Shown: positions 9,839-31,418, counted from the first letter of the stretch. The stretch is DNA of 64,000 bases from Falsibacillus albus (GCF_003668575.1 NZ_RCVZ01000001.1:248001-312000); one strand, 5' to 3'. Numbers and translations are program-made. Notes: generated by a model not told the origin, from the letters alone.

Positions 9839-9872
9839 AAAAAGCTGCCAAGAATTTGGCAGCTTTAATTTT
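9839..9872. terminator. Bidirectional terminator between the cyclase and minor pilin genes
   Basis: AAAGCTGCCA / TGGCAGCTTT forms a 10-bp stem flanked by an A-rich run on the left and TTAATTTTG on the right. It can therefore terminate both convergent transcripts, and it overlaps the stop codon of the minus-strand pseudopilin. Confidence 0.85.
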
Positions 9873-11358
9873 GTTTACTTTTATATTCCATATCGATTTC
9901 TTTAATTGTAAGTTTTTCTACGGTTGGAATACCTTTCGGAGGATCCAATATTAAATCTTTCTGATAGTGTATCGATAGTCTGGGTGTTCCATTGGTTGTA
10001 ACTGAATTGAGCCTGATCGGATTGCCGTATATTCCACCGTTTATTTTAAGATTCGATAGAATCCCATATATTTGCAATTCTTGATTGGAATAAAGATATG
10101 CATTCATTTCCATCGGCGCATCATTGAAAATATTGTTGAATGCGAGGGTAATCTGATTATTGGCCAGCAAGATTAATGTTCCTGCATTGTTATATAAGCT
10201 AGAAACAAAAATATTGTTGCCTGCATAAATGGTTCCATTGGAATTCAGTTCTCCTTGAATGTTCGCTGAACCGCCAATATACATCACACCATCCAAGTCC
10301 ACATCTTCAAAGGAAACGTTCCCGGCAGCATAAATGAAATTTTGATTCCCATTTACTATTATTTTTGTATTATGGTTTTGATGATGGGATCCATTGATAT
10401 AAATAGACCCTGTAACATAGAGCTTACCATATATATTCAGTGTACTCCCAGAGGAAATGACTAAATCCCCATTAATAAGCGTATTATTGGACAGTGTTTG
10501 GTTTCCGGAAATGGACAACCCTTTTTTATATCTAGTATAATTGCCCATTTGACTTACTTCATTTTGTTTTTCACTAATGATTTGTCCGATTTGGATCGGA
10601 TCAATATTCAATTCCCTGTCTTTAATTTTCGGAGGAACTTTAAAAAATGTTTTTAAATTTTCCATATCAGGTGAAAACGGCTGCCAATTCACACCACACC
10701 AAAAACATTGGTCTGTTTTATCCCCAAAGTACTTTCCTTCAACAGTTAGACTGCCGTCAATGGTTGGAAAAAGGGTCGAAGATAATAATGAAATAAGCGG
10801 ATTATTTGATGTATAAATATTATTCCCTGTATAAACATCGCCTTCGATATATGGGGACCCATTTAAAAATATGTCACCTGGCGAAATGGCGCTGTATCGA
10901 AAGACCTCCGATATGGTTGAGATCGTGACGGTTTTTTCTATTTTTTTTTGTTTGCTGATTGCTGAGGATATTGTTACTTGATCCAAGAACATGCCTTCAT
11001 TTTGTGAATCTTGCTTTAGTGTTTGATAATTCAAGGTGAATTTTTTCCCATCAACACTTTGTATATGATCCAAGGCAGTATGCAGGACACTTAAGTATTG
11101 TGCAGCAGGTACAAGTCCTTGTTCAATCGAACTGTTGATGCTCTCGACTTTATTTTCGATTAAAGCCATCGCTTCCTCAATGGCCATTTCCCCATCAAGC
11201 TTAGCCTGTACATTACCCTGTGCGATTTGGACCAGCTTAAAGGAATTCAAATTTATTGATAGAAGAGTCATCCCAAGGGCGATGACAACAACAACTACCA
11301 ATAATACAGAAAGCAGGGTATAACCATTTTCATTTTTCAGCTGTTTCATCCATTTCAC
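9865..11358 (-). CDS. Large PilX-like minor pseudopilin with predicted beta-helix head
   Basis: The protein starts with a short basic leader ending NENG, then YTLLSVLLVVVVVIALGM, a class III (type IV prepilin) signal with cleavage expected after Gly. Position +5 of the mature protein is Ser, not the usual Glu; this is known for PilX/GspK-type tip pseudopilins. After a helix (to ~residue 120) and a linker, residues ~165-470 contain repeated short Gly/Asn-turn strands (GDIFLNGSPYIEGDVYTGNN, NGDLVISSGSTLNIYGKLYV, GVMYIGGSANIQGELNSNG), which suggest a right-handed beta-helix similar in style to polymer-forming/bactofilin-like domains. A CFWC pair lies near residue 220. At 497 residues it is far larger than a normal pseudopilin. 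Its start overlaps the stop of the upstream gene by 4 nt. A role at the pilus tip is an inference. Confidence 0.75.
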   Translation of the reverse strand: MKWMKQLKNENGYTLLSVLLVVVVVIALGMTLLSINLNSFKLVQIAQGNVQAKLDGEMAIEEAMALIENKVESINSSIEQGLVPAAQYLSVLHTALDHIQSVDGKKFTLNYQTLKQDSQNEGMFLDQVTISSAISKQKKIEKTVTISTISEVFRYSAISPGDIFLNGSPYIEGDVYTGNNIYTSNNPLISLLSSTLFPTIDGSLTVEGKYFGDKTDQCFWCGVNWQPFSPDMENLKTFFKVPPKIKDRELNIDPIQIGQIISEKQNEVSQMGNYTRYKKGLSISGNQTLSNNTLINGDLVISSGSTLNIYGKLYVTGSIYINGSHHQNHNTKIIVNGNQNFIYAAGNVSFEDVDLDGVMYIGGSANIQGELNSNGTIYAGNNIFVSSLYNNAGTLILLANNQITLAFNNIFNDAPMEMNAYLYSNQELQIYGILSNLKINGGIYGNPIRLNSVTTNGTPRLSIHYQKDLILDPPKGIPTVEKLTIKEIDMEYKSKQN

Positions 11359-11867
11359 CCTTCACCTTTTTGAATAGAATAGACTGTGAAAAATTTAAGT
11401 GAATGATCGGAAGATTTTTGCTTTATGGTGAAGTAGCAATTCAAATTTCCGTTTTCACTAGTAAAATAAGAGTTTGAGAGCATGTAGTCAGGACTATTGA
11501 TCACTTTCCCATCTATGTACAGATTTCCATCAGCAATCTTGATTTTTATCGTGGAACGTGTTTCTTGAAAATCTCCTGAGGAACCTTCATGTTCCAAGGA
11601 AATATTGATTGCTGCAAATGATGAGAATTGATTATTCTCTTCATCCAGGTCTTCTGCTTCAACTTGATCAGTATTCAAAAGAGCTTCATTCATGTGTTCG
11701 GTGATATAAACAGCTTCGTTATTTAAGGCGGTTTTTAATACATCTTTATGGGCTGCCTTTTGAGAGGTAAGCGTAATGTGATAGATCAAGGTTATTACCA
11801 TGGAAGAAATGGCAATTGCCACTAGTAATTCAATAAGTGTTAATCCGCGATTATTAATTTTTCTCAT
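11355..11867 (-). CDS. Type IV pilus minor pseudopilin (PilW/PilJ-like)
   Basis: A 170-residue prepilin. The leader MRKINNRG is followed by LTLIELLVAIAISSMVITLIYH, a canonical N-methylation/cleavage site (Gly before Leu, Glu at +5) and transmembrane helix. It should be processed by the prepilin peptidase encoded at 20537. The C-terminal ~120 residues are a beta-rich globular head with an acidic EAEDLDEENNQ stretch and one Cys. It overlaps both neighbours by 4 nt, so the three minus-strand pseudopilins are probably translationally coupled. Which minor-pilin subclass it belongs to cannot be settled by eye. Confidence 0.85.
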   Translation of the reverse strand: MRKINNRGLTLIELLVAIAISSMVITLIYHITLTSQKAAHKDVLKTALNNEAVYITEHMNEALLNTDQVEAEDLDEENNQFSSFAAINISLEHEGSSGDFQETRSTIKIKIADGNLYIDGKVINSPDYMLSNSYFTSENGNLNCYFTIKQKSSDHSLKFFTVYSIQKGEG

Positions 11868-12325
11868 TTTCTAACATATCCTTCTGTCACTGATTTTTCG
11901 CTGTCCACCGCGGCAGTCACAGTAACTTTCAATACGAGAAGTCTATTGGACAGTGTGGGTGAGGGATGTCTGCTTACTTCAAGGAATGCTTTATATTTGG
12001 AGGAGTCTAGGTCTTCATTCCCAGCGAGTGTGCTTTTGATATCGATTTCTTCTTTGTTTCCAATTTTCCTTTCTAAATCTGTAAAGCTCAATTTTTTTGT
12101 TTCATTTAGAAGGCTTTTTGAAAGCTGAAGGGTTGAAAAATTATTCGTTGATATTTTCGTATTTTCATAGGATGTGGTAAGGAATGTGCCGGCTATTGTC
12201 AGTACAATTGAAAGCAAAACGATTGAAACCAAAACTTCAATCAAAGTAAATCCTTCCATATTTGAGATTTTTTTTCGGATTTTGACCAGCCACCTTCTTT
12301 TAAAATATCTATCTTTATTATACAA
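11864..12325 (-). CDS. Type IV pilus minor pseudopilin (PilV-like)
   Basis: The prepilin signal is KKISNMEG followed by FTLIEVLVSIVLLSIVLTIAG (Glu at +5), then a small soluble head (~100 residues). The given boundary uses an in-frame TTG at 12325, but that codon overlaps a TATAAT (minus strand, 12317-12322) that looks like the operon -10. The only good SD, AGAAGGTGG, lies at about 12290-12298 and is followed by CTG (12289), GTC, AAA and ATC (12280), with no ATG, GTG or TTG at the usual distance. The true start may be CTG or ATC. It is the first gene of the three-gene minor pilin operon, divergent from 12400. Confidence 0.82.
   Translation of the reverse strand: MYNKDRYFKRRWLVKIRKKISNMEGFTLIEVLVSIVLLSIVLTIAGTFLTTSYENTKISTNNFSTLQLSKSLLNETKKLSFTDLERKIGNKEEIDIKSTLAGNEDLDSSKYKAFLEVSRHPSPTLSNRLLVLKVTVTAAVDSEKSVTEGYVRK
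12317..12322 (-). promoter_or_regulatory. Candidate -10 box of the minor pilin operon
   Basis: TATAAT on the minus strand, upstream of the SD AGAAGGTGG of the first pseudopilin gene, within the 74-bp divergent intergenic region. No convincing -35 hexamer is seen, so an activator may be needed. Confidence 0.35.
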
Positions 12326-12399
12326 TATTTAGTAGTCGAATATCGTTGAAGTGAATATTTTTTCATAGATTTTTATCATAATTTGGAAGGGGTGAAAGG

Positions 12400-13884
12400 G
12401 TGGTTGTTTTTATTTTTTCAATATTGGCATTATTGATTGCGATTCCAATAGTGTTTATTATCCCAATCAATATAACGAATAAAGGGAAATTGATGCTGGT
12501 GGCGCTCTCATTTTTATTAACTTCTTTAGGGTTGTTGGCTACAATTCAATATTCGATATGGTTCGTTATTCCTGCCTTGATTATCCTGGCTGCACTCCTT
12601 GCTTATATTGTTGAGAGTAGATATAATCATATGTTTTTATCATCAGCCATAAATGATGAGCAATTGGTTGTGTTTGATGAAGGTAGTTTCAATGAAAATG
12701 AACCTGAAGATAGAGTAAGTAAAAATGTATCAAAAGACTCATTGGTATCCTTATATAAACAAGCAAAAGGCATTGAAGATGACGGAGAAGATTCTATTTT
12801 GCTGGAAGATGAATCTATGGACTTGGAAGATGAGGAATCCATTGTTTACTCAGACGATGAAGAAGCAGATTTAACAGATGATGGTTCAGATACCGCAATT
12901 AATGAAAAAGCAGAAACTTTAGCATCGCTGGAATGGTTGGAAGATGAATTAGAAGAATTAGAAGATATCAAGTTAGATGCTGACATGGAAGAGTTGCAAT
13001 TAGCCGATGGGTTTGAAATTGGTGACCTTGAAAAATCGACTGACGAATCTTTGAAAGTTGAAATAGTGGAGGCCATTATTGAAACTCCTTCTGATGCGGC
13101 CGAAGATGAAGAATTGAGTGAGATTGAAAGGATGCTGCATGAGCTCGATGAAGGTGTGGAAGGATCCGAAGCGCTTCCAATCACCATGCATATGAAATCT
13201 GAACAAACCCAAAACGAAGTCGATTCCCATATTCAAGGTGACTCCTTCGTTGAAATTATCGAAGAATTACATGATTTGAGTGTGGAAGAAGAAATTTTGA
13301 TTGGCGATGGTGATGTGTTCGATAAAGTGGAAACGTTTGAGCATTCCGATAGTTTGTCAGAAAGTGATGGCGAGGAAGAAGATCTCGATATAGAAGAAAC
13401 TTTTATTGAAAGTAGGGATGGCCTCGCCCATGAAAAATCATCTTCAAAAGAACTTGGTGGAAGCGTCATTTATGTAGACGAAGTGAATGCTCCAGTTGAA
13501 TCAAAACTCGAACCAGAAAATCTTTCTGTTGAAGAAGATCCAGAGATTAAACATGAAACAGCAAAAGTAGAGTTAACAAGGGGACAGCCGAGTATTCAAA
13601 AGGAAATGTTTCAAATGATGAGGGAGCAGCTGGTTCAATATCAGAAAAAATTATCGCCGAACCAATTTGAAGAATTGGTCTTAGCCTACTTGCACCCGAG
13701 TTTACCAGACAAAGATTACTATTCATTTGCGAAAATTTTAATGGAACATTACATTTTAACCGCAAATATAGAAAAATTGGTTATTTACGCAAATGAAATT
13801 CATGATCGATTTAAAGCGTTCCCAGGTATTGTAGCAGAAATCGAACTTTACAAAAGCTTTATACGTCCAAGTGTAAGAAACTAA
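12400..13884 (+). CDS. Acidic membrane-anchored protein heading the pilus operon, unknown function
   Basis: I do not recognise this 494-residue protein. Residues ~1-85 contain two or three transmembrane helices (VFIFSILALLIAIPIVFII; LMLVALSFLLTSLGLLA; IWFVIPALIILAALLAYIV). Residues ~90-390 are a strongly acidic low-complexity region rich in Glu, Asp and Ser (for example LDADMEELQ, ESDGEEEDLDIEE). A more ordered helical C-terminal domain of about 95 residues follows (KEMFQMMREQLVQYQKKLSP ... HYILTANIEKLVIYANEIHDRF). The GTG start has GGAAGGGG 7 nt upstream. It is first in the plus-strand pilus operon, and 24 nt separate it from the PRC-barrel gene. A structural or scaffold role at the pilus base is a guess only. 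Confidence 0.72.
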   Translation: MVVFIFSILALLIAIPIVFIIPINITNKGKLMLVALSFLLTSLGLLATIQYSIWFVIPALIILAALLAYIVESRYNHMFLSSAINDEQLVVFDEGSFNENEPEDRVSKNVSKDSLVSLYKQAKGIEDDGEDSILLEDESMDLEDEESIVYSDDEEADLTDDGSDTAINEKAETLASLEWLEDELEELEDIKLDADMEELQLADGFEIGDLEKSTDESLKVEIVEAIIETPSDAAEDEELSEIERMLHELDEGVEGSEALPITMHMKSEQTQNEVDSHIQGDSFVEIIEELHDLSVEEEILIGDGDVFDKVETFEHSDSLSESDGEEEDLDIEETFIESRDGLAHEKSSSKELGGSVIYVDEVNAPVESKLEPENLSVEEDPEIKHETAKVELTRGQPSIQKEMFQMMREQLVQYQKKLSPNQFEELVLAYLHPSLPDKDYYSFAKILMEHYILTANIEKLVIYANEIHDRFKAFPGIVAEIELYKSFIRPSVRN

Positions 13885-13908
13885 AAACGAGAATAGGTGT
13901 GGAAAAAA

Positions 13909-14661
13909 ATGAAAAAAAGTGCAGAAATTAAAAGACTTCCAATAATAAATATTGCTGAAGGGGTTGAGCTGGGAAGGGTAAAATCCTTAGTGATCAATCC
14001 AGAAAAAGGTTCGGTGGACTTTCTAACAATCGAACATGAGGATTGGCAGGTCAGCGTGAAGGCGATTCCTTTCAAAAAAGTTGTGGGAATCGGTGAATAC
14101 GCTGTAACGGTTGAAAATGAAAATGCAGTGATTGATCTGAATGAGATTCCGATTGCCAATCAGCTCGTTAATAAAAAAATCAAAATTAACGATACGAGGG
14201 TCATGACACGAAAAGGCCAGTTGATCGGCGAAATTACTGAGTATTATGTAGACGATGAAAATGGTTCAGTCCTAGGACTTGAATTAAAGGTGAAAGATGA
14301 AATGGTAATCCTCCAATCCGAGTTTGTCCTTACATATGGGAAGGATATCATCATTGTGAAAGAGGACTCCCTCAATCATATGAAAAAAGATATCAGTCAA
14401 CTTGATGACGGGGTAATCGATGCTCATGATGAAGCAGCAGCTGCTTCCGAGAAAGCAGTTACACCAGAAGATCAGCTGGCAGAAATAAAATCAAGGCAAT
14501 TTCAGCTCTTGCTTGGGAAGAAAGTGACGAAGGATATTCAAGAATCAAATGGTGATGTTGTCATCCCAGGGGGAACGATTCTTAGTGAAGAGCACATACA
14601 ATCCGCGCAGGAAGCCGGCCCGTCTGTATTTGTTGATTTGACAATGAGCATTGAAGCATAA
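13909..14661 (+). CDS. PRC-barrel domain protein, pilus-operon associated
   Basis: A soluble ~250-residue protein with two PRC-barrel-like beta modules. Residues ~1-80 include IAEGVELGRVKSLVINPEKG and residues ~85-160 include RVMTRKGQLIGEITEYYVDD. A C-terminal helical and beta segment follows (EDQLAEIKSRQFQLLLGKKV). PRC barrels act as small adaptor domains in photosynthetic reaction centres, RimM and sporulation proteins such as YlmC/YmxH. The ATG at 13909 is preferred over an in-frame GTG 12 nt upstream because AGGTG lies about 9 nt before it. It is located 24 nt after the acidic membrane protein and 13 nt before the VanW/G5-like gene, so it is co-transcribed. Its function in piliation is unknown. 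Confidence 0.75.
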   Translation: MKKSAEIKRLPIINIAEGVELGRVKSLVINPEKGSVDFLTIEHEDWQVSVKAIPFKKVVGIGEYAVTVENENAVIDLNEIPIANQLVNKKIKINDTRVMTRKGQLIGEITEYYVDDENGSVLGLELKVKDEMVILQSEFVLTYGKDIIIVKEDSLNHMKKDISQLDDGVIDAHDEAAAASEKAVTPEDQLAEIKSRQFQLLLGKKVTKDIQESNGDVVIPGGTILSEEHIQSAQEAGPSVFVDLTMSIEA

Positions 14662-14674
14662 GAGGGGTGGCTAA

Positions 14675-16021
14675 ATGAAAAATAGTCGTTTGGTTAAATT
14701 GATGTTGATCTTATTGTTATTTACCGGGTTTATTTTTGGCTTTTCGAATATAGGTGCATTGGCGTATGAAAAGCTCGTCCTGGATAATGACAAATTCAGT
14801 GTTGATACCACTGTCAACGATGTAAATATCGGAGGCGAATCTGTTGCAGATGCAAATCAGTCCTTGGCCAATGCGATAAGCCAATGGAAGAAAAACTCAA
14901 AAATTTCGGTGCGCTTGCTGAATAATGAAATGCTGCTGGATACAGGATTATTTCATTTTGATATCGATACGACATTGGGAGAATTAAAAAACGGACAGCA
15001 TGCTTCTTTGTACGTATTAGTGGACAAGACCTCTTTGCGGCATGAAATCCAAGCTGCTTTTAAAGAAATCGATCCATCCGATATTGATTTGGTAAAATTG
15101 GCAAACGATTTAAATGGTATGGCTTCAGTTCTGCAAAGCGGTGAAACAACAGTGGAATTAACTGATTACATTCAGGCATCAAAAGGTCAACAACCATTGA
15201 TTCAAACGAGTACAGAAAATATGGAGATTACACCAGCGATTGAGCAGTTTGTCAAAGACTTTCCAGAAATCGATATTCCAGGGAAGTCCCAATTTTCATT
15301 TGATCAATTTTTGGCCGAGAACAAAAATACCATTGAATCGAGTGCAAACTTGAGCATCTTTTCATCATTGATTTACAAAATGATACTTCAAACGAATTTT
15401 TCTGTAATAGAAAAAAATACAAGTCGTGAATTGCCCGAAAACATTGAGTTGGGCTTTGAAGCAATGGTCAATCCGAAAAATAATCAAGATTTAATTGTTA
15501 TCAATCCTAATGAGACCAAATACAAAATAAACTTCGATATCATAGGCAAGCAAGTGGAAGCCAGTTTGGAAGGCGCTCCGTTCTTGTTTAAATACAAGGT
15601 AAAACTATCTGACAAAGCAACCTATCCGCCTAAAACGATCATTCAATTTAGTCCACTGTTGAATGATGGGGACAAGAAGATCTTGAATGAGGGAAAACCC
15701 GGGATGAGAATACAAATCATCAGGCAGTCCTTGGATAAACAAAACCAGCTGGTGAAGGAAGAGAAAATTGCAGATGATTTCTATCCACCGATATATCGAG
15801 TCGAGCTCCACAGTTTAATGGAGCAGTCCAAAGGGAATGAGGGTGAAGGCATATCCCAAAATAATGACCAAACCGGCAATGATACCCAAATTAATGGAGA
15901 AGAGGGTTCAAGATCTGATAATAGTCAATCTAATACTTCAACCACAAATGGGACCGATGATACAAAGAATGTCAGCCTTTATGATAATTGGGAAAATGTA
16001 GATGGCTCTGAAGTGAAATAA
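14675..16021 (+). CDS. Secreted/anchored VanW- and G5-like surface protein in pilus operon
   Basis: A 448-residue protein with an N-terminal signal or anchor helix (LMLILLLFTGFIFGFSNIGAL). It then has a module resembling the peptidoglycan-binding repeats of YoaR/VanW proteins (VNDVNIGGESVADANQSLAN). A middle region resembles the VanW fold but is diverged (IELGFEAMVNPKNNQDLIVI). A G5-like stretch near residues ~345-390 (GKPGMRIQIIRQSLDKQNQL) precedes a Ser/Thr/Asn/Gly-rich tail. This suggests an extracytoplasmic, wall-interacting protein. It is followed 21 nt later by pilB. Helping the pilus pass through thick peptidoglycan is a reasonable inference, not shown. Confidence 0.68.
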   Translation: MKNSRLVKLMLILLLFTGFIFGFSNIGALAYEKLVLDNDKFSVDTTVNDVNIGGESVADANQSLANAISQWKKNSKISVRLLNNEMLLDTGLFHFDIDTTLGELKNGQHASLYVLVDKTSLRHEIQAAFKEIDPSDIDLVKLANDLNGMASVLQSGETTVELTDYIQASKGQQPLIQTSTENMEITPAIEQFVKDFPEIDIPGKSQFSFDQFLAENKNTIESSANLSIFSSLIYKMILQTNFSVIEKNTSRELPENIELGFEAMVNPKNNQDLIVINPNETKYKINFDIIGKQVEASLEGAPFLFKYKVKLSDKATYPPKTIIQFSPLLNDGDKKILNEGKPGMRIQIIRQSLDKQNQLVKEEKIADDFYPPIYRVELHSLMEQSKGNEGEGISQNNDQTGNDTQINGEEGSRSDNSQSNTSTTNGTDDTKNVSLYDNWENVDGSEVK

Positions 16022-16042
16022 CCTGATAAGCAGGGTGATGGG

Positions 16043-17704
16043 ATGATAAAAGAAAGAAAGAGACTTGGGGATTTATTAGTTGAAACAGGCATGATTTCCG
16101 AGGAACAGCTTCAGGAATCATTGAATGAAAAAGAAAAAGGCCAGAAGCTCGGTGATGTCTTACTGCAAAAAGGCTTGATCACAGAACAGCAGCTTATAGA
16201 AGTACTTGAATTTCAACTTGGCATTCCACACATCAGTTTATACCGGTACCCATTTGAGAATAATTTATTTCATTTAATTCAAAAAGATACAGCTAAAAGA
16301 AATCTCATGATTCCGTTGAAGAAGGAAGGCGATCGACTTTTTGTCGCAATGTCCGATCCGATGGACTTTTATGCCATTGAAGACTTAAGGCTGTCAACGG
16401 GCTTTCAAATTGAAACGGCAATCGCCACCAAGGATGACATACTAAAAGCGATCAATAAATATTACGACAAAGAGGAAGGTTTCGAAGAACTTGTCAATGA
16501 TCGAATTGATCAGGATCCGGGAGACCAGCAAAATATCACCGATCAAGATTCACCTGTTGTCAGGCTGGTCAATCAGATTCTCATGAATGCTGTAACGCTG
16601 AAGGCCAGCGATATCCATTTAGATCCTCAAGAAACAAAGATCGTGGTGCGTTATCGGATAGATGGTGTATTGAGGACAGAGCGGACATTCCCGAAGCATA
16701 TGCAAAGCATACTCATTGCTCGCATAAAAATTATGGCCAACTTGGATATTACCGAATTCAGGATTCCGCAGGATGGAAGAATCAAAACTAATTTGGAGTA
16801 CCGGCCGGTCGACTTGCGCGTCTCCACCCTGCCAACAGTCTTTGGCGAAAAAATAGTCATGCGGATCCTAGACCTGAGTGGTACATTAAATGATATTAAA
16901 CAGTTGGGCTTTAATAAGCTGAATTTAAAAAGATTCATGGATATGATCGATCAGCCCACAGGCATCGTCTTGATAACGGGTCCCACTGGATCCGGTAAAT
17001 CGTCGACATTGTATGCAGCATTGAACCAGTTGAACAGCGAAGAAGTTAACATCATCACGGTCGAAGATCCCGTGGAATATCAATTGGAGGGGATCAATCA
17101 AATCCAGGTGAACCCAAATGTGGGCCTTACCTTTGCTAAGGGGCTTCGCTCGATATTACGCCAGGATCCAAATATCATCATGGTTGGCGAAATTCGTGAC
17201 CGCGAAACGGTCGAAGTGGCTATCCGTGCTTCATTGACTGGACACTTGGTGTTAAGCACCATCCATACCAATGATTCAATCGGGACCATTACGCGCTTAT
17301 TGGATATGGGAGTTGAACCATTTTTGGTAGCTTCCTCACTCAGTGGAATCGTGGCACAGAGACTTGTAAGAAGGGTTTGCCGTGATTGCATAGAAGTTTC
17401 AGCACCTACCAAAAGGGAAGTTGACATTTTCGCCAGAAGGGGAATGAAAATCGAAAAAGTAGCCCGGGGAAAAGGGTGTTCTTCCTGCAGTATGACCGGG
17501 TATAAAGGACGAATCGCCATCCATGAAGTACTCTCAATGAATGATGAAATGAGAAAAATCATTTTAAATGGAGAATCTTTTTCGAATTTGCGTGAATATG
17601 CCATCAAACATAAAACCATCTTCTTAATTGATGATGGCCTGCTTAAAGTGAAACAATTGATAACCACCACCGAAGAAGTTCTTCGTGTGGCAATGACGGA
17701 GTAG
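16043..17704 (+). CDS. pilB: Type IV pilus assembly ATPase PilB with MshEN-type N-terminus
   Basis: The extension motor of the T4P, a hexameric cytoplasmic ATPase of the GspE/PilB family, 553 residues. The N-terminal domain shows two consecutive MshEN-type motifs, RLGDLLVETGMISEEQL and KLGDVLLQKGLITEQQL, each followed by a Leu helix; this arrangement binds c-di-GMP in MshE. The core has Walker A GPTGSGKS at 313-320, the Asp box (ITVEDPVEYQLEG), Walker B (NIIMVGEIRDRET) and the His box (GHLVLSTIHTND). Tetracysteine zinc site: C446-x2-C449 and C479-x2-C482. The ATG has a GGGTGATGGG SD. pilT follows after 8 nt. Confidence 0.96.
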   Translation: MIKERKRLGDLLVETGMISEEQLQESLNEKEKGQKLGDVLLQKGLITEQQLIEVLEFQLGIPHISLYRYPFENNLFHLIQKDTAKRNLMIPLKKEGDRLFVAMSDPMDFYAIEDLRLSTGFQIETAIATKDDILKAINKYYDKEEGFEELVNDRIDQDPGDQQNITDQDSPVVRLVNQILMNAVTLKASDIHLDPQETKIVVRYRIDGVLRTERTFPKHMQSILIARIKIMANLDITEFRIPQDGRIKTNLEYRPVDLRVSTLPTVFGEKIVMRILDLSGTLNDIKQLGFNKLNLKRFMDMIDQPTGIVLITGPTGSGKSSTLYAALNQLNSEEVNIITVEDPVEYQLEGINQIQVNPNVGLTFAKGLRSILRQDPNIIMVGEIRDRETVEVAIRASLTGHLVLSTIHTNDSIGTITRLLDMGVEPFLVASSLSGIVAQRLVRRVCRDCIEVSAPTKREVDIFARRGMKIEKVARGKGCSSCSMTGYKGRIAIHEVLSMNDEMRKIILNGESFSNLREYAIKHKTIFLIDDGLLKVKQLITTTEEVLRVAMTE

Positions 17705-17712
17705 GTGGACGC

Positions 17713-18756
17713 ATGAAAGAAAAAATTGATTATTTATTAAGGGCTGCCTATGAATTCAAAGCATCGGACATTCATTTGACCGTCGGCTCGCAGCCAATAT
17801 TTCGTATCAATGGCGATTTAAAAAAATATGGGAAAGACATATTGAAGCCCGAAGATACCGAAGGCATGGCAAAGTCCATCATTCCAAATCATCTGTGGGA
17901 TGAATTGAAGGATATCGGTGAGCTGGACTTCTCATATGGCATCCAAGGGGTTTCACGGTTCCGGGTAAACGCTTTTCATCAAAGATCCTGTATTTCCCTG
18001 GCGATTCGTATAGTTCCTACCGCCATCCCATCGATTGATGACCTGCAGCTCCCGCTTGTTTTAAAACGTTTAACGGAAAAGCCTCAGGGTCTGTTTTTGG
18101 TAACTGGTCCAACAGGGAGCGGAAAATCAACTACACTCGCCTCCATGATCCATTTCATGAACTCGACTTCGAGAAAGCATATCATCACGTTGGAGGATCC
18201 AATAGAATATCTTCATAAACATGGCTCTTGCATCATTGACCAAAGGGAAATCGGATTCGACACGAGGGATTTTGCCCAGGGTCTTAGGAGTGCATTAAGG
18301 CAAGATCCAGATGTCATTTTGGTAGGGGAGATGCGTGATTTAGAAACGATTCATACTGCAATCACTGCAGCAGAGACAGGGCATCTCGTCCTTGGTACGC
18401 TTCATACTTCAAGTGCCCCGTCTACGATCGAGAGGATCGTAGATGTCTTTCCGCCTCAGCAGCAGGCGCAGATTCGTATCCAATTGGCATCCGTGCTTGT
18501 CGCGATATTATCGCAGAGGTTATTTCCGACAGCTGACAAAAAGGGCAGGCGGGCAGCCACTGAGCTCCTTGTCAATAATGCTGCAGTAGCCAATTTAATT
18601 CGTTCGGAAAAAGTCCATCAAATACAGAATATTATGCAGACGTCTAAAGGATTGGGGATGCATACTATGGAAGCAAGGATAAAAGAACTGGTGGAAGCAG
18701 AGGTCATTGCAAATGAATCAGCCTATGCTTACATACAGGAAGAGAGTACAGTCTGA
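17713..18756 (+). CDS. pilT: Type IV pilus retraction ATPase PilT
   Basis: PilT powers pilus retraction, used in twitching and DNA uptake in other species. The 347-residue protein has the PilT N-terminal PAS-like domain (KASDIHLTVGSQPIFRINGD), Walker A GPTGSGKS at 132-139, the Asp box (ITLEDPIEYLHKH), Walker B (DVILVGEMRDLET), the His box (GHLVLGTLHTSSAPSTIERI) and the C-terminal VANLIRSEK, matching the AIRNLIRE retraction motif. Its presence indicates a dynamic pilus rather than a simple pseudopilus; the B. subtilis ComG system has no PilT. It overlaps pilC by one base (stop-start TGATGG). Confidence 0.96.
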   Translation: MKEKIDYLLRAAYEFKASDIHLTVGSQPIFRINGDLKKYGKDILKPEDTEGMAKSIIPNHLWDELKDIGELDFSYGIQGVSRFRVNAFHQRSCISLAIRIVPTAIPSIDDLQLPLVLKRLTEKPQGLFLVTGPTGSGKSTTLASMIHFMNSTSRKHIITLEDPIEYLHKHGSCIIDQREIGFDTRDFAQGLRSALRQDPDVILVGEMRDLETIHTAITAAETGHLVLGTLHTSSAPSTIERIVDVFPPQQQAQIRIQLASVLVAILSQRLFPTADKKGRRAATELLVNNAAVANLIRSEKVHQIQNIMQTSKGLGMHTMEARIKELVEAEVIANESAYAYIQEESTV

Positions 18757-19967
18757 TGGCGCGATATCAATTTACAGGCAGAGGCCGTGAAGGAGACAAA
18801 AAAGGGACGATTACTGCGCTGTCTAAGAAAGAAGCGATGCTCAAGCTCAAAAATCAAGGCATCAGGGTCATTGAAATTGAAGAAATACCCGAAACGCTTT
18901 TGACAAAGGATATTAATATCGGCAATCCGGTAAAGCTTCAGCATTTGGTGATATTTCTGCGTCAATTTTCCACACTTCTGCAAGCAGGTGTGACTGTAGT
19001 GGAAGCGACGCATATTCTTTCTGCACAGACCGAAAGCAAAGTTCTTAGCAGGATCTTGACAGAGGTAGAAAATGAATTGAAGGATGGGAATCCATTATCA
19101 GACGCATTTTCAAAGCATAAAAAGGTTTTTGAACCGCTGCTGATCAATATGCTGAAAGCTGGTGAGGCGACCGGAAGCCTTGATGAAACATTGGACAGGC
19201 TTGCAAATCATTATGAAAAACAGCATACGACGAAGCAAAAAATCATTTCCGCCATGGCTTATCCTGCAGTTGTCGGGGTGATCGCCATCGGGGTCATCAT
19301 CTTCTTGCTTGTCGCTGTCGTCCCGACCTTTGTCTCGATGTTCAAGGATTTTGGCGGGGAACTGCCGGGGATTACAAAATTCGTCATAAACGCCAGCGGC
19401 TTCATGGAGCATTACTGGTATATAGTAGTCATGATCATGGTGTTAATCATGCTAGGATTTATGATGTTAAAAGGCAACAAGAAAACAAAATACTATATCG
19501 ATTATGCAATTTTGCGCATGCCGATTTTCGGGAAAATGATGCAAAAAGCGGTACTTGCCAGAATGACACGGACACTGAGCTCACTGTTTTCAAGCTCGGT
19601 CCCGATTCTTCAGGCAATGGCCATAGTCGAGAAAATTGTTGAGAACGAAGTGATCGCCGGTGTGATCAAGCAATCGCGGGAAGCTTTGGAAACAGGTCAC
19701 TCCTTGACAGGGCCGATGAGGAGGCATTGGGCCTTCCCACCATTGGTCAGCCAAATGATCGCCATCGGTGAAGAAACGGGATCGCTCGATTCCATGCTGA
19801 GTAAAGTCGCCGACTTCTATGAAAAGGAAGTTGAAAATGCCACGGACAGGCTGAAATCGTTGATCGAACCAATCATGATCGTCCTTCTGGCATCAATCGT
19901 CGGCACCATCGTGACATCGATCCTCGTCCCGATGTTCGATATATTTAACCAAGTACAGAATTATTGA
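18756..19967 (+). CDS. pilC: Type IV pilus inner-membrane platform protein PilC
   Basis: An integral membrane protein of the GspF/PilC family, 403 residues, on which PilB and PilT act. Two T2SSF domains are visible: the first around residues 65-190 (FLRQFSTLLQAGVTVVEATH, MLKAGEATGSLDETLDRLA), the second around 270-390 (MTRTLSSLFSSSVPILQAM, MIAIGEETGSLDSMLSKVA). Three transmembrane helices flank them (VVGVIAIGVIIFLLVAVVPT; WYIVVMIMVLIMLGFMML; IMIVLLASIVGTIVTSIL). The start overlaps the pilT stop. A 119-nt gap with a separate promoter follows before the major pilin. Confidence 0.96.
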   Translation: MARYQFTGRGREGDKKGTITALSKKEAMLKLKNQGIRVIEIEEIPETLLTKDINIGNPVKLQHLVIFLRQFSTLLQAGVTVVEATHILSAQTESKVLSRILTEVENELKDGNPLSDAFSKHKKVFEPLLINMLKAGEATGSLDETLDRLANHYEKQHTTKQKIISAMAYPAVVGVIAIGVIIFLLVAVVPTFVSMFKDFGGELPGITKFVINASGFMEHYWYIVVMIMVLIMLGFMMLKGNKKTKYYIDYAILRMPIFGKMMQKAVLARMTRTLSSLFSSSVPILQAMAIVEKIVENEVIAGVIKQSREALETGHSLTGPMRRHWAFPPLVSQMIAIGEETGSLDSMLSKVADFYEKEVENATDRLKSLIEPIMIVLLASIVGTIVTSILVPMFDIFNQVQNY

Positions 19968-20007
19968 AATAACTTTACAAAAATTTCTAAAATTCAGCAA
20001 AACATTT

Positions 20008-20036
20008 CTTTATTTAGGTAATTTGTCTAGTATAAT
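20008..20036 (+). promoter_or_regulatory. Candidate promoter of the major pilin gene
   Basis: A perfect TATAAT at 20031-20036 lies 51 nt before the pilin ATG in the only sizeable gap of the operon. The -35 region is weak (TTCTTTAT). A separate start site would fit the need for much more pilin than assembly protein. Confidence 0.5.
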
Positions 20037-20086
20037 GAACTTAAGAATATTTTATTATTAATAAGAAACGTAGGAGGAATTGGAAA

Positions 20087-20533
20087 ATGTTGAAGAAAAT
20101 CGGTCAAAGATTAAAAGACCAAAGAGGTTTGACATTGATTGAGCTTTTGGCAGTTGTTGTCATTTTGGGAATCATCGCTGCGATCGCGATTCCGAGCATC
20201 GGTGGAATTATTAATAACTCTAAGAAGGATGCTCATATAGCAAACGCTCAGCAAATGGTTGATGCGGCTAGAATGGCAATAACCGCCAATGATAAAGGAG
20301 CTACTGCTGGTCAATTTACCATGGCAGAATTAGTAAGTAAAGGGTATTTAGAAACAGTAGACGATCCATCAGATAGTACAGGTTATGATGATGCTAAAAG
20401 TATTGTAACTTATACAGCCAGTGGAACTTCGGGAAGCTACACATATACAGTTACATTGGTAGGAAAAGCTGGAACAACTCACGTAGCACCAAAAGACCCG
20501 AAAACTATGAAAAGGACAGATATCACACTATAG
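20087..20533 (+). CDS. pilA: Major type IV pilin (PilA/ComGC-like)
   Basis: A 148-residue prepilin. The basic leader MLKKIGQRLKDQRG is followed by LTLIELLAVVVILGIIAAIA, a canonical type IV prepilin cleavage and methylation site with Glu at +5, then IPSIGGIINNSKKDAHIANA. The head is Thr/Ser/Gly-rich (YTASGTSGSYTYTVTLVG) and has no cysteines, so a disulfide-free beta-sheet is expected. The excellent SD (GTAGGAGGAATTGGAAA) and own promoter suggest high expression. It is followed 3 nt later by the prepilin peptidase. It is likely the main filament subunit; the second pilin at 23650 is the alternative. Confidence 0.9.
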   Translation: MLKKIGQRLKDQRGLTLIELLAVVVILGIIAAIAIPSIGGIINNSKKDAHIANAQQMVDAARMAITANDKGATAGQFTMAELVSKGYLETVDDPSDSTGYDDAKSIVTYTASGTSGSYTYTVTLVGKAGTTHVAPKDPKTMKRTDITL

Positions 20534-20536
20534 ATC

Positions 20537-21280
20537 ATGGGTATTATCTTATTCCTCTACGGCCTTCTCCTAGGCTCCTTCTACAACGTAGTCGGCCTGC
20601 GGGTGCCTGAAAAAAAATCGATCGTAAAGCCGCGTTCGGCCTGCCCGAACTGCGGACATACTTTGAGACCAATAGAATTGATACCGGTTTTATCTTACGT
20701 CATTCAAGGGGGGAAGTGCTCACAATGCAGTGGGTGCATCTCTCCTCTTTATCCTTTCATGGAACTTGCTGCTGGCCTTTTGTTTGTTTACTCCTATGAG
20801 GTGTTTGGTCTTGCCCCGGAGCTGCTGATCGCCTTGACGCTGGTTTCCATGCTTATCATCATTTTCGTATCTGATATCAAATATATGATTATCCCGGATA
20901 AAATCCTGCTTGTATTTGGGGGCATTTTTATCGTGGAGCGGCTTTTGCTGCCCTTGAGTCCATGGTGGGATTCACTGGTTGGAGCTGTTGTTGCTTTTGC
21001 CCTTCTCCTGCTCATTGCTATTGTCAGTAATGGAGCGATGGGCGGCGGGGATATAAAATTATTTGCTTTGCTTGGCTTCGTCCTAGGGGTGAAGCTGGTG
21101 CTGCTTTCATTTTTCCTTGCTACGCTAATCGGAGCGGTTGTCGGTATCATCGGATTAGCAATCGGCATCTTTGAAAGGAAGAAGCCGATTCCATTTGGGC
21201 CTTATATTGTAGCGGGGACACTTGCAGCCTATTTCTTTCATTATGAAATCCTACGATGGTATTTCTCTCTCATTTTGTAA
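20537..21280 (+). CDS. comC: Prepilin leader peptidase / N-methyltransferase (ComC/PilD)
   Basis: A polytopic aspartyl protease of the GspO/PilD family (TFPP), 247 residues. It cleaves the leaders of type IV prepilins and methylates the new N-terminus. The N-terminal domain has LLLGSFYNVVGLRVPEKKS and the zinc tetracysteine (CPNC ... CSQC). Catalytic aspartates are in VSDIKYMIIPDKIL and in MGGGDIKLFALLGF. About seven to eight membrane helices are visible. No SD precedes the ATG, which lies 3 nt after the pilin stop, suggesting translational coupling to pilA. In B. subtilis comC occupies this same position between folC and spoIIB, so this enzyme probably also processes ComG pseudopilins. Confidence 0.95.
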   Translation: MGIILFLYGLLLGSFYNVVGLRVPEKKSIVKPRSACPNCGHTLRPIELIPVLSYVIQGGKCSQCSGCISPLYPFMELAAGLLFVYSYEVFGLAPELLIALTLVSMLIIIFVSDIKYMIIPDKILLVFGGIFIVERLLLPLSPWWDSLVGAVVAFALLLLIAIVSNGAMGGGDIKLFALLGFVLGVKLVLLSFFLATLIGAVVGIIGLAIGIFERKKPIPFGPYIVAGTLAAYFFHYEILRWYFSLIL

Positions 21281-21295
21281 AAGGAGCATACTTAT

Positions 21296-22255
21296 ATGGC
21301 TTTTGGACTATTTTCGAAAAAACAGAAAATCTCTAACCTTGTCCTGACAGATGAATACATACGCTATGCTGATGTTAAAGCTTCTGAGCCGTTGACAGTT
21401 GAAGGCATTGGTGAGAGGCGGTTACCTGAAGGGATAATATCAGAAGGGAAAATCATCGATCGGCAGACTCTGGAGATGATCATGGAAGAGTGTGTGGAAG
21501 AGTGGGGGATCAAAAATCGTCAGATTCGTTTCACCGTTCCGAGTACATATATTATTTTGAAAAATATATTTATCTCTGAAGATATCCATGATGATGAAAT
21601 TAAAAGCCATTTGTTCCTGGAGATTGGGACAAGTATTCACCTTCCTTTTGAAAATCCTCTTTTCGATATTGTGGTACTTGGCAGCAGTGAGGGGAAAAAG
21701 GAAGTGCTGCTGATTGCTGCACCGGAGGATATCATCCTATCATACCGGGAGTTGTTGGAAGGTGTCGGATTAAAGCCGTTCATCGCTGATATTTCCCCGC
21801 TTTCCCTGTATCGGATTTTATATTATCAGGATAAGGCAGAAGCCAAAGAGCATGAAATGATTTTGAAATTTAGTGCAAAAATGCTCACGGTTTCAATTTT
21901 TCACGAGCATCGGCCTATTTTTTTACGTCCGATTCATATGAACTCAGAAGACAACCTGAGAAGCACGCTTGATGAGGGAAACGAAGCGCCAATCGATTTT
22001 CTGCTTGAGGATACGGTCAAAGAAATTGAAAAGGTCATGAATTTTTACCGTTACTCCCTGCATAAAGGTGAACAAAGCGTAACAAAAATGATCCTTACCG
22101 GCGACCATCCGCATCTTCATGCAATCCAAGACCATTTAACGAATCGTTTGAATCTTAATATTGTTTTAGATCAACCCGCCTTTGAAGGCGAGGGCGGATT
22201 AGTGCCAATAACGTTCCATACCGCAATAGGGTTAGGATTAAAAGAGGTGCTCTAA
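21296..22255 (+). CDS. pilM: Type IV pilus assembly protein PilM (actin-like)
   Basis: PilM is a cytoplasmic actin-like ATPase-fold protein that joins the PilN/PilO membrane complex to the motor. The 319-residue protein begins AFGLFSKKQKISNLVLTDEY and shows family features: ITPxG-like RRLPEGIISEGKIID, TVPSTYIILKNIFI and the SHM-like core. Similarity is moderate, as is usual in Firmicutes. The ATG has an AAAGGAGC SD, and the gene ends one base into pilN, a tightly coupled arrangement. Order, size and context (pilM-N-O) support the call more than motifs do. Confidence 0.88.
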   Translation: MAFGLFSKKQKISNLVLTDEYIRYADVKASEPLTVEGIGERRLPEGIISEGKIIDRQTLEMIMEECVEEWGIKNRQIRFTVPSTYIILKNIFISEDIHDDEIKSHLFLEIGTSIHLPFENPLFDIVVLGSSEGKKEVLLIAAPEDIILSYRELLEGVGLKPFIADISPLSLYRILYYQDKAEAKEHEMILKFSAKMLTVSIFHEHRPIFLRPIHMNSEDNLRSTLDEGNEAPIDFLLEDTVKEIEKVMNFYRYSLHKGEQSVTKMILTGDHPHLHAIQDHLTNRLNLNIVLDQPAFEGEGGLVPITFHTAIGLGLKEVL

Positions 22256-22893
22256 TGTTAATCGATATTAACTTGCTTCCAGAAAAAAAAGTGAAAAAGA
22301 GAACTTCACTCTATCTTATTGCGGGCATCTTAGCGGCAGCAATCTTATTCGGTATAATATTAATCTTCCAAGTAAATTCACAGAAAGCGCATTTGAAAAC
22401 ACTTGATGCAAAATTACAGGAGCAAAAGCAGATCGAAATTACGATGCAGAAGCGCATCAAAACGTTCGAAACCTCTGACAGCTTTCAACAGCTTGATCAA
22501 GCGGTGAAATGGGCTGAATCCTATCCAGTGAAAACCGGTCCTGTGTTGGACAAGCTTACTGCCCTTTTGCCGGAGAGGGGCTTTTTCAACGAATTTGGAT
22601 ATGCTGAAGACGGCACCGTTTCATTGAGGGTTCAATTCGACTCAGAAAGCCAGGCTGCCTACTATTTGGATCGACTTAAGAAAGCTGATTGGATAAGTGA
22701 TGCCAATATTATGAAGCTAAGCACCTCTCAAATAGATGATACAAATAAAGGGTCTGCAAATCTAACAGCCACGGCTGGGGCAGATAATGTCTTGCCGAGA
22801 TATATCGCAAGCTATGAAATCAAGCTGAATAAATCTATCATTCAATCTGAATCAGATGAGTCCTCTGAAGTGGAAGGGGATGAACAAAATTGA
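22255..22893 (+). CDS. pilN: Type IV pilus alignment protein PilN
   Basis: A bitopic membrane protein, 212 residues. The short cytoplasmic N-terminus MLIDINLLPEKKVKKR contains the conserved INLLP motif that binds PilM. One transmembrane helix follows (LYLIAGILAAAILFGIILIF), then a periplasm-equivalent coiled coil (LKTLDAKLQEQKQIEITMQK) and a ferredoxin-like domain (RGFFNEFGYAEDGTVSLRVQ). The start overlaps the pilM stop, and the stop overlaps the pilO start by 4 nt. It anchors the PilC/PilB platform. Confidence 0.93.
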   Translation: MLIDINLLPEKKVKKRTSLYLIAGILAAAILFGIILIFQVNSQKAHLKTLDAKLQEQKQIEITMQKRIKTFETSDSFQQLDQAVKWAESYPVKTGPVLDKLTALLPERGFFNEFGYAEDGTVSLRVQFDSESQAAYYLDRLKKADWISDANIMKLSTSQIDDTNKGSANLTATAGADNVLPRYIASYEIKLNKSIIQSESDESSEVEGDEQN

Positions 22894-23678
22894 CATCTTT
22901 CAGTAAAAAAGAGTGGGCGTTACTTGCTTCCTCCATCATCGTTTCAGGGGTGATTTTGTTTGGGGTATACTTTCTATTCCTTAAACCGATGAATGATCAA
23001 GTAGAAATTCGGACAAAAGAACTTTCAGCCGAAGGAAAACTGATTAAAGTCGTCAAACAAAAGGTCTCCGAAATCAAGCAGAACACATTTGAAAGCACCG
23101 TTTCCCTTCAAATGAAGGTGCCGGTGAAATCAGCAACAGAAAATCTATTGCTCGATTTGGAAAAAGCAGAAGTTGTATCACAAAGTACAATTCAATCATT
23201 GGAATTTGCGGATGGCGACATCTCACAAACATTACAAGCCGATACGTCCAAATTATCTCATGATGACCAAGTAAAAGATAGTTCAGACAGCTCGCCGAAA
23301 ACCCCGCTAGCGACGCCAAATTCAAATTCACAAACTAACAAGGAAGTGGTTTTGCCGAACGGCCTCCAAAAAATCACGATCAAAATCGATCTCGACACGG
23401 AGAGCTACACGGATTTCAAAAAATTTCTTTCCGAGCTCGAAGGCTTGAAACGGATTGTGGAAGTCGAGCAGATCTCCTTCCAGGGCCCGCCCGAGGTCAA
23501 GACGGTGGAAGATGCACCGGGACTGATGGAATACAGTCTCGTGGTATCTGCATTTTATCTTCCTGGGATAGATGATTTGACGAAGCAGCTTCCGGGGATC
23601 GATTCGCCCTTGCCTGCCAATAAAAACAATCCATTCGCCTTAAGTCCGGATGTGTCCGAAGATGCTGCACCAAATTGA
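22890..23678 (+). CDS. pilO: Type IV pilus alignment protein PilO
   Basis: The partner of PilN, 262 residues. It has one transmembrane helix near the N-terminus (WALLASSIIVSGVILFGVYF), a coiled coil (QVEIRTKELSAEGKLIKVVK), a Ser/Thr/Asn-rich linker and a C-terminal ferredoxin-like domain (QKITIKIDLDTESYTDFKKF ... MEYSLVVSAFYLPG). It overlaps pilN at its start and the next pilin gene at its end. The linker may span peptidoglycan, since no outer membrane exists; the absence of a PilP and secretin gene fits a Gram-positive host. Confidence 0.88.
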   Translation: MTSFSKKEWALLASSIIVSGVILFGVYFLFLKPMNDQVEIRTKELSAEGKLIKVVKQKVSEIKQNTFESTVSLQMKVPVKSATENLLLDLEKAEVVSQSTIQSLEFADGDISQTLQADTSKLSHDDQVKDSSDSSPKTPLATPNSNSQTNKEVVLPNGLQKITIKIDLDTESYTDFKKFLSELEGLKRIVEVEQISFQGPPEVKTVEDAPGLMEYSLVVSAFYLPGIDDLTKQLPGIDSPLPANKNNPFALSPDVSEDAAPN

Positions 23679-24147
23679 TATTGGTCATCACGGTAAACGG
23701 CAAAATGGATTTACGCTTGTTGAATTGCTTGCCATCATCGTGATCCTTGGCATCATTTCTTCCATTGCCATCGTTCAGATTGACAATGTCATTGAGACGT
23801 CAAAGAAGCAAGCATTCGTGGCAAACGCTTATACGCTAAAAAACGCGGCACAGTTTTATTTGAAGGAGCCTGAACTGGATGGTTCTGCCCGCTTCGTCCA
23901 GCAGTTATCCTACAAAAATTTGCATGATCTAGGGTTCATCGACGAGATCAAGGATCCTTTTACAAAAAATAATTTAGACCCGTTGAAAAATGATTCCTAT
24001 GTGACGATTGAAGATGGTAAAGTCACCGCGGTTTGTTTATTCGGAGATACCTTTAACCTCTGCTCCGAAATACAGGATGATCAAGTCATTGCTAATACAC
24101 CGGTGTCCTTTTCCACCCTGACAATCGCTGACCTCCAGCCGAATTGA
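23650..24147 (+). CDS. Second type IV pilin-like protein at the end of the pilus operon
   Basis: A prepilin with basic leader (HHGKRQNG) and cleavage before FTLVELLAIIVILGIISSIA with Glu at +5; the body (VQIDNVIETSKKQAFVANAY) parallels the major pilin (NNSKKDAHIANA), so the two are probably paralogues. The head is ~110 residues and contains two cysteines (CLFGDTFNLC) that could form a disulfide, unlike PilA. The start is ambiguous: ATG at 23650 or 23662, both inside the pilO end, and no strong SD is seen, pointing to coupling and low expression. It is probably a minor or alternative pilin. A terminator follows. Confidence 0.85.
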   Translation: MCPKMLHQIDIGHHGKRQNGFTLVELLAIIVILGIISSIAIVQIDNVIETSKKQAFVANAYTLKNAAQFYLKEPELDGSARFVQQLSYKNLHDLGFIDEIKDPFTKNNLDPLKNDSYVTIEDGKVTAVCLFGDTFNLCSEIQDDQVIANTPVSFSTLTIADLQPN

Positions 24148-24203: not shown

Positions 24204-24250
24204 CATTATATGGTAGCATGAAGCAAATGTTTCGTGCGGGAGGGTTGAAA

Positions 24251-25261
24251 TTGGACAAGTCCAAAAAGGACAAGGCAACGATAACGATAAAAATCAATGG
24301 GGAAGAAAAGCAGTTTCAAGAAGAACTGGTCGTGCATGATTGGAAGGAGGCCAAAACGGAATCGGCAGCATCTGCAGAGGCTTTGGAAGAGGATGAATCA
24401 TTTGATTGGGTGCTGCCGGACGAGGGGCCGCAGAACGGGGAAGAAATAAAAGAATTTAAGCAAATTTCTTATGTGCCGGCTGTCACGAAGAAAACATGGA
24501 TCAACCCGAGGCAGAAGCAATCCGGCTCGCCTGCCATGCTGGTTTCGATCTTGCTGGCAGTTTTGACGGGATTACTGCTTGGATATGTCATGCTGCATTT
24601 GTTTACGAGTAAAGATACCCCTGCAAGTTCAGCAGGTATAGGAGAGCAAACTTCTCAACCGGATTCACAACCTAAAGATGCCACAGGTCAAACAATGGTA
24701 CTGAAAGCATTCTCCGTCCCGATTATCCAGGCAGGAGTATTTGAAAACGGTGATTCTGCTGAATCCATTTCGAGTGAGGTACATTCAAAAGGATTTCCGG
24801 CTGCCGTGATTCAACAGGATGGCAAATATTATTTACTGGCAGGAGTAGCTGGATCGGTGGAGGATGCGAAACAAGCGGGCAACGATTTCAAAAATAATCA
24901 AATTGATGTATACGCAAAATCCATCGAAATTCCATCAAAAACGGTGGATGGGGTATCAGAAAGTGAAAAAGCGTTTCTGAATGATTCTGGTCAGCTTTTT
25001 TTGTCATTAAGCCAAGTAGCCGGTAATGCTTCTTTGGGCAACACTCTCGATTCTGATTCATTGGATAAGCTGGAAGAAAAATACCCCGTGCTTAAAAATG
25101 GCGTCGATAAAGCAAATAAAAAAATAGCGGTGATGGGTTCACAGCTAAAGCAATCCTTTGATGAACTGAAAAAATTCAGTGCCAGTAAGGATCAGAAATC
25201 ATTGTTTCAAGCACAACAATCGCTGTTGGACTTTTTAAAAGGCTATATGGAATATAAGTAA
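24251..25261 (+). CDS. spoIIB: Stage II sporulation protein SpoIIB
   Basis: SpoIIB acts early in engulfment, when septal peptidoglycan is thinned, and helps SpoIIDMP and other proteins reach the septum. The cytoplasmic part (~residues 1-95) is acidic and Lys-rich with ATITIKINGEEKQFQEEL. A transmembrane helix follows (MLVSILLAVLTGLLLGYVML), then a linker and a C-terminal SPOR peptidoglycan-binding domain (VPIIQAGVFENGDSAESISS ... YYLLAGVAGSVEDAKQAG). TTG at 24251 is chosen because GGGAGGG lies 7 nt upstream; the ATG at 24218 would place the SD inside the gene. maf lies downstream, as in B. subtilis. Confidence 0.9.
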   Translation: MDKSKKDKATITIKINGEEKQFQEELVVHDWKEAKTESAASAEALEEDESFDWVLPDEGPQNGEEIKEFKQISYVPAVTKKTWINPRQKQSGSPAMLVSILLAVLTGLLLGYVMLHLFTSKDTPASSAGIGEQTSQPDSQPKDATGQTMVLKAFSVPIIQAGVFENGDSAESISSEVHSKGFPAAVIQQDGKYYLLAGVAGSVEDAKQAGNDFKNNQIDVYAKSIEIPSKTVDGVSESEKAFLNDSGQLFLSLSQVAGNASLGNTLDSDSLDKLEEKYPVLKNGVDKANKKIAVMGSQLKQSFDELKKFSASKDQKSLFQAQQSLLDFLKGYMEYK

Positions 25262-31247: not shown

Positions 31248-31418
31248 GTTGCTTTCCACGAAGGATGCTTGCTTTCATCACACGAAGTGAAGTCGTTCGA
31301 TGTTGGCACACGACGTGCCGAACTTACTCAAACATCCCCCTTGCATCTCCTCGCTTCACTGCGGGGTCTCACTGCCCGCTAATCCATCCGAAGTCTCGCA
31401 CCTTCCGTTCTTGATTGA
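31248..31418 (-). repeat. Family I repeat, copy E (reverse orientation)
   Basis: On the minus strand it contains GGAAGGTGCGAGACTTCGG, AGTGAGACCCCGCAG, TGAAGCGAGGAG, the TTCGGCACGTCGTGTGCC hairpin, CATCGAACGACTTCACTTCG and GCAAGCATCCTTCG, all matching copy A. It fills the first part of the 768-bp minD-spoIVFA gap. Confidence 0.82.

Follow-up and report, generated by a model that had tools for sequence, protein, structure and literature searches.

The window analysed here is a 64,000-nucleotide stretch of the Falsibacillus albus genome (GCF_003668575.1, NZ_RCVZ01000001.1:248001-312000). Its block at 9865-24147, between folC and spoIIB, carries a complete set of genes for a monoderm type IVa pilus, and the prepilin peptidase gene of that locus, pilD, stands where Bacillus subtilis has comC. 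The best explanation as a whole, to which we give a probability of about 0.9, is that a retractile pilus locus was ancestral in the order and was lost repeatedly, with pilD kept for the ComG competence machine as the gene called comC. The original prediction had proposed that an ancestral pilus operon may have been lost around B. subtilis comC, leaving only this gene behind, and the distribution of the locus, its remnants, deletions, a second chromosomal site, the PilD tree and an approximately unbiased (AU) test uphold it.

Distribution of the pilus locus

We drew 120 genomes evenly over the 47 families of the window's order, searched each for PilT, the peptidase, FolC and Maf, and then compared positions. 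PilT scored over its cut-off in 83 of the 120. The type IV pilus (T4P) and PilD lay together inside the folC-maf interval in 73 genomes by the automatic rule (72 after correction of one genome, G087), and in 26 others comC stood alone there with no pilT, frequently within families that also hold pilus carriers. The pilus and PilD were at another site in nine genomes, comC was at another site in ten, and one genome had none of these. Two genomes (G037 and, after correction, G087) have the pilus elsewhere with comC at folC-maf. A pilus locus at folC-maf is therefore the majority state of the order, the rule and neither an exception nor a curiosity.

Gene order is the same in 52 of the 68 named T4P-positive loci and recurs in other orders of the class (e.g., L108, L114, L121, L123, L127). 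Named carriers include Rossellomorea, Neobacillus, Anoxybacillus, Geobacillus thermodenitrificans (L180), Halobacillus, Litchfieldia, Sporosarcina and Planococcus. Lone comC genes were found at folC-radC in families f56, f76, f54 and f64 of other orders; they were also sought, and not found, in f51, f71 and f77. The locus was probably ancestral in the order and is probably older still in class Bacilli.

Some layouts are split. In L120 and L251 (G138), pilT lies between folC and maf, with pilB, pilC and pilD at another place. The Fictibacillus pilus loci (L184, L187, L188, L190, L194) have no pilD beside pilA, and G037 (family f38; L047, L027), which retains comC at folC-maf, has a similar layout. 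The Fictibacillus and G037 arrangements suggest a peptidase used in trans.

Remnants and deletions around pilD

The Maf protein of one genome, G292, matches the aligned PDB 1ex2 chain with 100% identity; we take that chain to be a B. subtilis protein, and G292 hence to be B. subtilis 168. Its interval reads valS-folC-comC-spoIIB-maf-radC-mreB, so the statement that B. subtilis carries only comC at this place is borne out, and ComC has the same chromosomal address as the PilD of the pilus locus. Within the B. subtilis family, none of 44 Bacillus sensu stricto species has PilT, against 24 of 36 genomes of the other genera, and all 80 genomes have one peptidase.

Comparison of folC-spoIIB intervals, which the original prediction had proposed as a check, was run across the order and this family and returned full, partial and lone states. 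Every grade of locus decay exists inside the B. subtilis family. The PilT-negative G308 retains pilD, pilM, pilN and pilO; G305 retains fragments of pX, pilM and pilO, a pilC broken into three, and pilA and pilD, and G301 is similar; G318 keeps the end of pilC together with pilA and pilD, and fragments of pilM and pilO; G320 keeps pilD and a piece of pilO; and G326 keeps the GGDEF gene and pilD. Only pilD is left at the interval in G311, G317, G325 and B. subtilis. The gene is intact in all PilT-negative family members mapped, and its ratio of nonsynonymous to synonymous substitution rates (dN/dS) is 0.09-0.21 in eroded loci, i.e., PilD is under purifying selection there.

Two cases outside the family show the same outcome. 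Compared with G064 of the same genus, G097 has three deletions (2.4, 8.0 and 1.75 kb) which spare exactly pilD, and the sequence flanking them is 91-93% identical between the two genomes. In G048 the pilus locus is not at folC; it occupies a second chromosomal address, and the genes that flank it there enclose a lone comC in G001, a genome of the same genus without a pilus (neighbour proteins 63-82% identical for the nearest on the left, 92% on the right). For families f23 and f46, a pilus-bearing counterpart address was sought and none matched.

A peptidase probably shared by several pilus systems

The source genome (4.49 Mb in 37 contigs, with a completeness score of 100%) encodes only one A24 peptidase, the window's PilD. 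It also has comGA-GB-GC elsewhere and a Tad-type cluster (TadZ, TadA, TadB-like) on contig 23 (G000; L003, L230), separate from the pilus block. Because PilD is the only prepilin peptidase in the genome, it most likely processes the ComG prepilins too; it probably serves all three loci (pilus, comG and tad), perhaps by cleaving the prepilins of the Tad cluster as well. ComGA is over its cut-off in 115 of the 120 order genomes, and PilD is single-copy in almost all. In some genomes that lack the pilus and keep comC, ComGA seems to be split or truncated (G320, C1:4059636 and 4066917; G322, C134:125099).

In the mechanism that we propose, the minor pilins would prime the filament and PilM, PilN and PilO would align the platform protein PilC. 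PilB would add PilA; cyclic di-GMP (c-di-GMP) probably gates this step by way of the MshEN domain, and the adjacent GGDEF cyclase may take part in the control. PilT would remove PilA, so the pilus should retract, and it might then serve the twitching, adhesion or DNA uptake that the original prediction drew from retraction. PilD would cleave the prepilins of the pilus and also those of ComG. Where the locus was lost, as it would have been many times, deletion or decay would have taken the other genes, whereas pilD would have been preserved by selection because ComG still needs a peptidase, and B. subtilis comC would be the residue.

Peptidase trees and locus exchange

The peptidase tree holds 137 sequences, and the AU test used a 42-row set. 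In the tree, comC-only sequences are scattered among pilus-bearing ones, the state changing at least 30 times, and pairs joining the two kinds with starred support occur in families f4, f21, f30, f31, f39, f43 and f44. The PilDs of family f21 form the sister group of four Bacillus ComCs, that of B. subtilis among them (99*). A single clade of comC-only enzymes was rejected by the AU test (p-AU 2e-5, 42 rows), at a cost of 689 log units. Decay grades, pilD-sparing deletions, the second address and the rejection of a separate ComC clade thus support the reading of B. subtilis comC as a relic of pilD kept for ComG.

Parsimony on a tree of flanking genes gives either 24 losses and no gains or 18 losses and four gains; with loss forbidden, 35 gains are needed. 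The trees of pilus machinery and flanks correlate (r=0.57) and share 10 splits, against 0.3 expected. PilD tracks the machinery (r=0.72) better than it tracks the flanks (0.535).

Several points weigh against ancestry with repeated loss. The flank tree was built from five linked genes and is roughly rooted. Full agreement between the concatenated machinery and flank trees was expected and did not appear, 14 conflicts being strongly supported. Strict vertical descent of B. subtilis ComC with the PilDs of its own family (f43 as one clade) was rejected (p=0.011). B. subtilis ComC does lie among the enzymes of pilus loci, but its nearest group is f21, not the T4P-positive genera of its own family, so its descent is either not strictly vertical or blurred by a long, compositionally odd branch. 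The 14 conflicts, for their part, mean that whole pilus loci are frequently exchanged in place at the site.

One such exchange is visible within the window's own genus. Compared with G038 (L048), the window's PilB is 59%, PilC 52% and PilD 56% identical, and the core of PilB, PilT, PilC and PilD spans 52-67%, against flanks mostly at 75-96% (MreB 96%, RadC 87%, GGDEF 78%). These identities indicate an exchange of the pilus locus, either in the window's lineage or in that of G038. Correlation with the flanks is 0.58 for the window's machinery and 0.65 for its PilD, and 0.07 and 0.39, respectively, for those of G038. Recent foreign origin of the whole block by base composition was considered and rejected: G+C is 44.1% for pilB-pilC and 46.4% for pilD, like the window (42.7%). 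The AT-rich parts are the minor pilins and the genes up to VanW, at 35.7-37.9%. In our reading, the copy in the window is therefore not a recent foreign arrival, because it follows its flanks and its core has ordinary G+C.

Competing explanations

The alternative named in the original prediction was a pilus cassette entering next to comC; in its general form, lone comC is ancestral and the site is an insertion hot spot where cassettes entered beside it time and again. Foreign pilus loci do arrive at the site. G088 has a divergent set with another gene order at folC-maf; G087 has comC at the home site and a related foreign set at another place; and Fredinandcohnia quinoae (L172) has a complete locus beside pilA-pilM-pilN-pilO remnants of another copy, with spoIIB between. 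The many conflicts between machinery and flank trees also fit such entry. It is thus correct that foreign pilus genes arrive, by in-place replacement or tandem insertion, but their arrival does not explain a lone comC. Without loss, about 35 insertions would be needed at a single site, each of them around pilD and with an identical gene order, and the pseudogene pieces beside comC, the three G097 deletions and the second address would be left unexplained. Pilus pseudogene debris beside a lone comC, which this account should not produce, was found, and we give the account hardly any credence. A mixed history fares much better and is rather probable: the locus was ancestral, and present alleles, perhaps including the window's, stem largely from in-place exchange, so that PilD tracks the pilus and not the host. 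The correlations of PilD, the divergence between G038 and the window, and the placement of B. subtilis ComC with f21 speak for it, but many close pairs within families share an allele and the window's pilus follows its flanks acceptably. Such a history is compatible with ancestral presence and repeated loss, and refines it.

Two further doubts concern the block itself. Type II secretion systems and Com machines share most of its components, and the GspE and GspF models score high too, so it could encode a secretion or competence pseudopilus and not a surface pilus; the dedicated PilT and a separate comG in the same genome make this highly improbable. Alternatively, the locus could be intact and silent. 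That too is unlikely, since all its reading frames are open and lineages that no longer use the locus show decay within a genus. Extending ancestral presence and repeated loss to a larger scale, the ancestor of most of class Bacilli may have had a retractile pilus at folC-mreB and a Com pilus sharing one peptidase, with lone comC genes, both at that address in several orders and at other addresses, marking lost pili, and with PilT possibly retracting the Com filament too in the many species that still have the pilus. This is a tentative proposal that we consider has less than an even chance; if true, the action of PilT on the Com filament would be relevant to the retraction of Com pili in species that have no PilT.

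Gene content of the block

The pilus genes named in the original prediction are all present at the coordinates given, by family models and position, and the flanking genes (folC, spoIIB, maf, radC, mreB) are confirmed, although its list passed over three genes of the block (starting at 12400, 13897 and 14675) and the GGDEF gene upstream (8126). All reading frames of the block are open. On the left, the boundary marker folC (6733..8049, +; Mur ligase domains), which is kept in relatives, is followed by a gene for a membrane GAF-GGDEF diguanylate cyclase (8126..9829, +; Pfam GGDEF 143 bits, GAF) with an intact GGEEF motif. Three minor pilin genes then lie on the minus strand: a large one of 497 aa, GspK/PilX-like in position and recognised from its sequence anatomy (9865..11358), one GspJ/PilW-like by position (11355..11867; N_methyl 32.7 bits) and one GspI/PilV-like by position (11864..12325; N_methyl 30.3 bits, with TIGR02523 PilV weak and under its cut-off). 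All later genes are on the plus strand. They begin with a 494-aa protein (12400..13884) with an N-terminal transmembrane segment, an acidic middle and a helical C-terminus, which has no family match and whose homologues recur in related pilus loci; a PRC-barrel protein (13897..14661; PF05239 47 bits); and a membrane-anchored VanW-G5 wall protein (14675..16021; VanW 24.6 bits, under the cut-off of 27).

The core follows. The extension ATPase gene pilB (16043..17704; T2SSE 450 bits) encodes an MshEN c-di-GMP domain (72.5 bits), and the NCBIfam model of its c-di-GMP motif scores 62.3 against a cut-off of 38. Next are the retraction ATPase gene pilT (17713..18756; TIGR01420 464.5 bits, cut-off 319), pilC for the platform protein (18756..19967; T2SSF 214.5) and pilA, probably for the major pilin (20087..20533; N_methyl 32.3 bits, prepilin motif G^LTLIE). 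The peptidase gene pilD, in the comC position (20537..21280; A24_N 104.8, Peptidase_A24 73.3), encodes both catalytic Asp motifs and two CxxC pairs. It precedes pilM (21296..22255; PilM_2 70.9 bits), pilN (22255..22893; PilN 24.2 bits, slightly above its 22.8 cut-off), a pilO-like gene (22890..23678) and a second pilin gene (23650..24147; N_methyl 31.3 bits). The PilO-like protein found no match in a family-model search and is assigned by position, size, one N-terminal transmembrane segment and conservation in related loci. The right boundary marker is spoIIB (24218..25261; SPOR), also kept in relatives, and maf, radC and mreB come after it.

Four block proteins have the N_methyl prepilin motif over cut-off. 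The block has the set that defines a type IVa pilus—PilB and PilC, a dedicated PilT, class III prepilins and an A24 peptidase with A24_N—together with a PilM-PilN-PilO alignment complex, of which PilM and PilN are over cut-off and PilO is placed by position and conservation only. It is not a ComM competence pilus (comGA-GB-GC without PilT or PilMNO), having both PilT and PilMNO, nor does it have TadA, TadB, TadC, TadZ and Flp in one locus, as a Tad system would. Away from the block, the window has a T-box leader at 3579-3813 (+), preceding valS, and a Bacillaceae-1 small RNA (Rfam, over the gathering score) at 31277-31343 (-), just past minD.

Accessory genes

The VanW-G5 gene lies within 3 kb of pilB in 52 of 57 order loci and is present in one of 42 comC-only loci; it is almost always directly upstream of pilB and disappears along with the pilus. 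VanW is over cut-off in the proteins of relatives, as is G5, and the AlphaFold 2 model of the window's protein (mean confidence, pLDDT, 81.5) matches G5 in Foldseek (E=1e-7). The protein is a candidate wall-anchoring or wall-passage factor of monoderm pili. The GGDEF gene is present in 27 of 61 loci with FolC and PilB and in 18 of 41 comC-only loci, often outlasting the pilus (G326, G308, G097), and its product is a candidate local source of c-di-GMP. A c-di-GMP riboswitch was looked for at the locus and not found.

For the 497-aa pilin, a family-model search gave no match, and its N-terminal signal is class-III-like without Glu5. In its AlphaFold 2 model (pLDDT 82.6), a long helix forms the N-terminus and a beta-helix the body; Foldseek returned no match at E<=0.001, and weak matches were to tapirins and ice-binding proteins. 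Our guess is that it could be a tip adhesin.

Comparison with known systems

Pili of this type were already known in 2011; the new part is the explanation of comC. In the available portion of their paper, Imam et al. 2011 (PMC3244431) describe pil operons in Bacillus sp. NRRL B-14911 (B. infantis), Geobacillus and Exiguobacterium, and a significant number of Gram-positive pil operons with pilT. That portion deals with presence and diversity only and does not include the folC-spoIIB address, prevalence or comC as a remnant. Geobacillus thermodenitrificans has a window-type locus at the same site as the window. The competence literature counts ComC in the Com set (PMC7212644), and a broad study left peptidase trees aside as poorly resolved (PMC6668835). 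Our literature search, which did not extend to subscription reviews, found no paper linking comC to a lost pilus locus.

Reading comC as a relic explains why this gene, on which B. subtilis depends to take up DNA, stands alone, far from the comG operon. Full, partial and lone loci also form a comparative set for studying peptidase sharing, retraction of the Com pilus and passage through the wall, for which VanW-G5 is a candidate; how a monoderm pilus passes the wall is a question that has been raised for PilO (PMC6916266).

B. subtilis ComC is a PilD-type peptidase at the chromosomal address of the window's pilD. The ComG machine that it serves has its own ATPase and platform and, unlike the window's pilus, lacks PilT, PilM, PilN and PilO. 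The T4P cluster of Paenibacillus thiaminolyticus Mbale (PMC9765702), whose closest gene order was said to be that of B. infantis and C. cellulolyticum, has in common with the window a monoderm pilus, PilB with MshEN, and PilT. However, it is reported on a mobile element, whereas the window's locus is an old resident. The retractile type IVa pilus of Streptococcus sanguinis (PMC6916266, PMC7212644), which was acquired by one species, resembles the window's in its minimal monoderm machinery, its PilM, PilN, PilO and PilT, and its separate Com pilus. In 2020, S. sanguinis was stated to be the sole monoderm known to express both filaments (PMC7212644); counter to that statement, genes for a retractile pilus and for a Com pilus occur together in most species of Bacillales.

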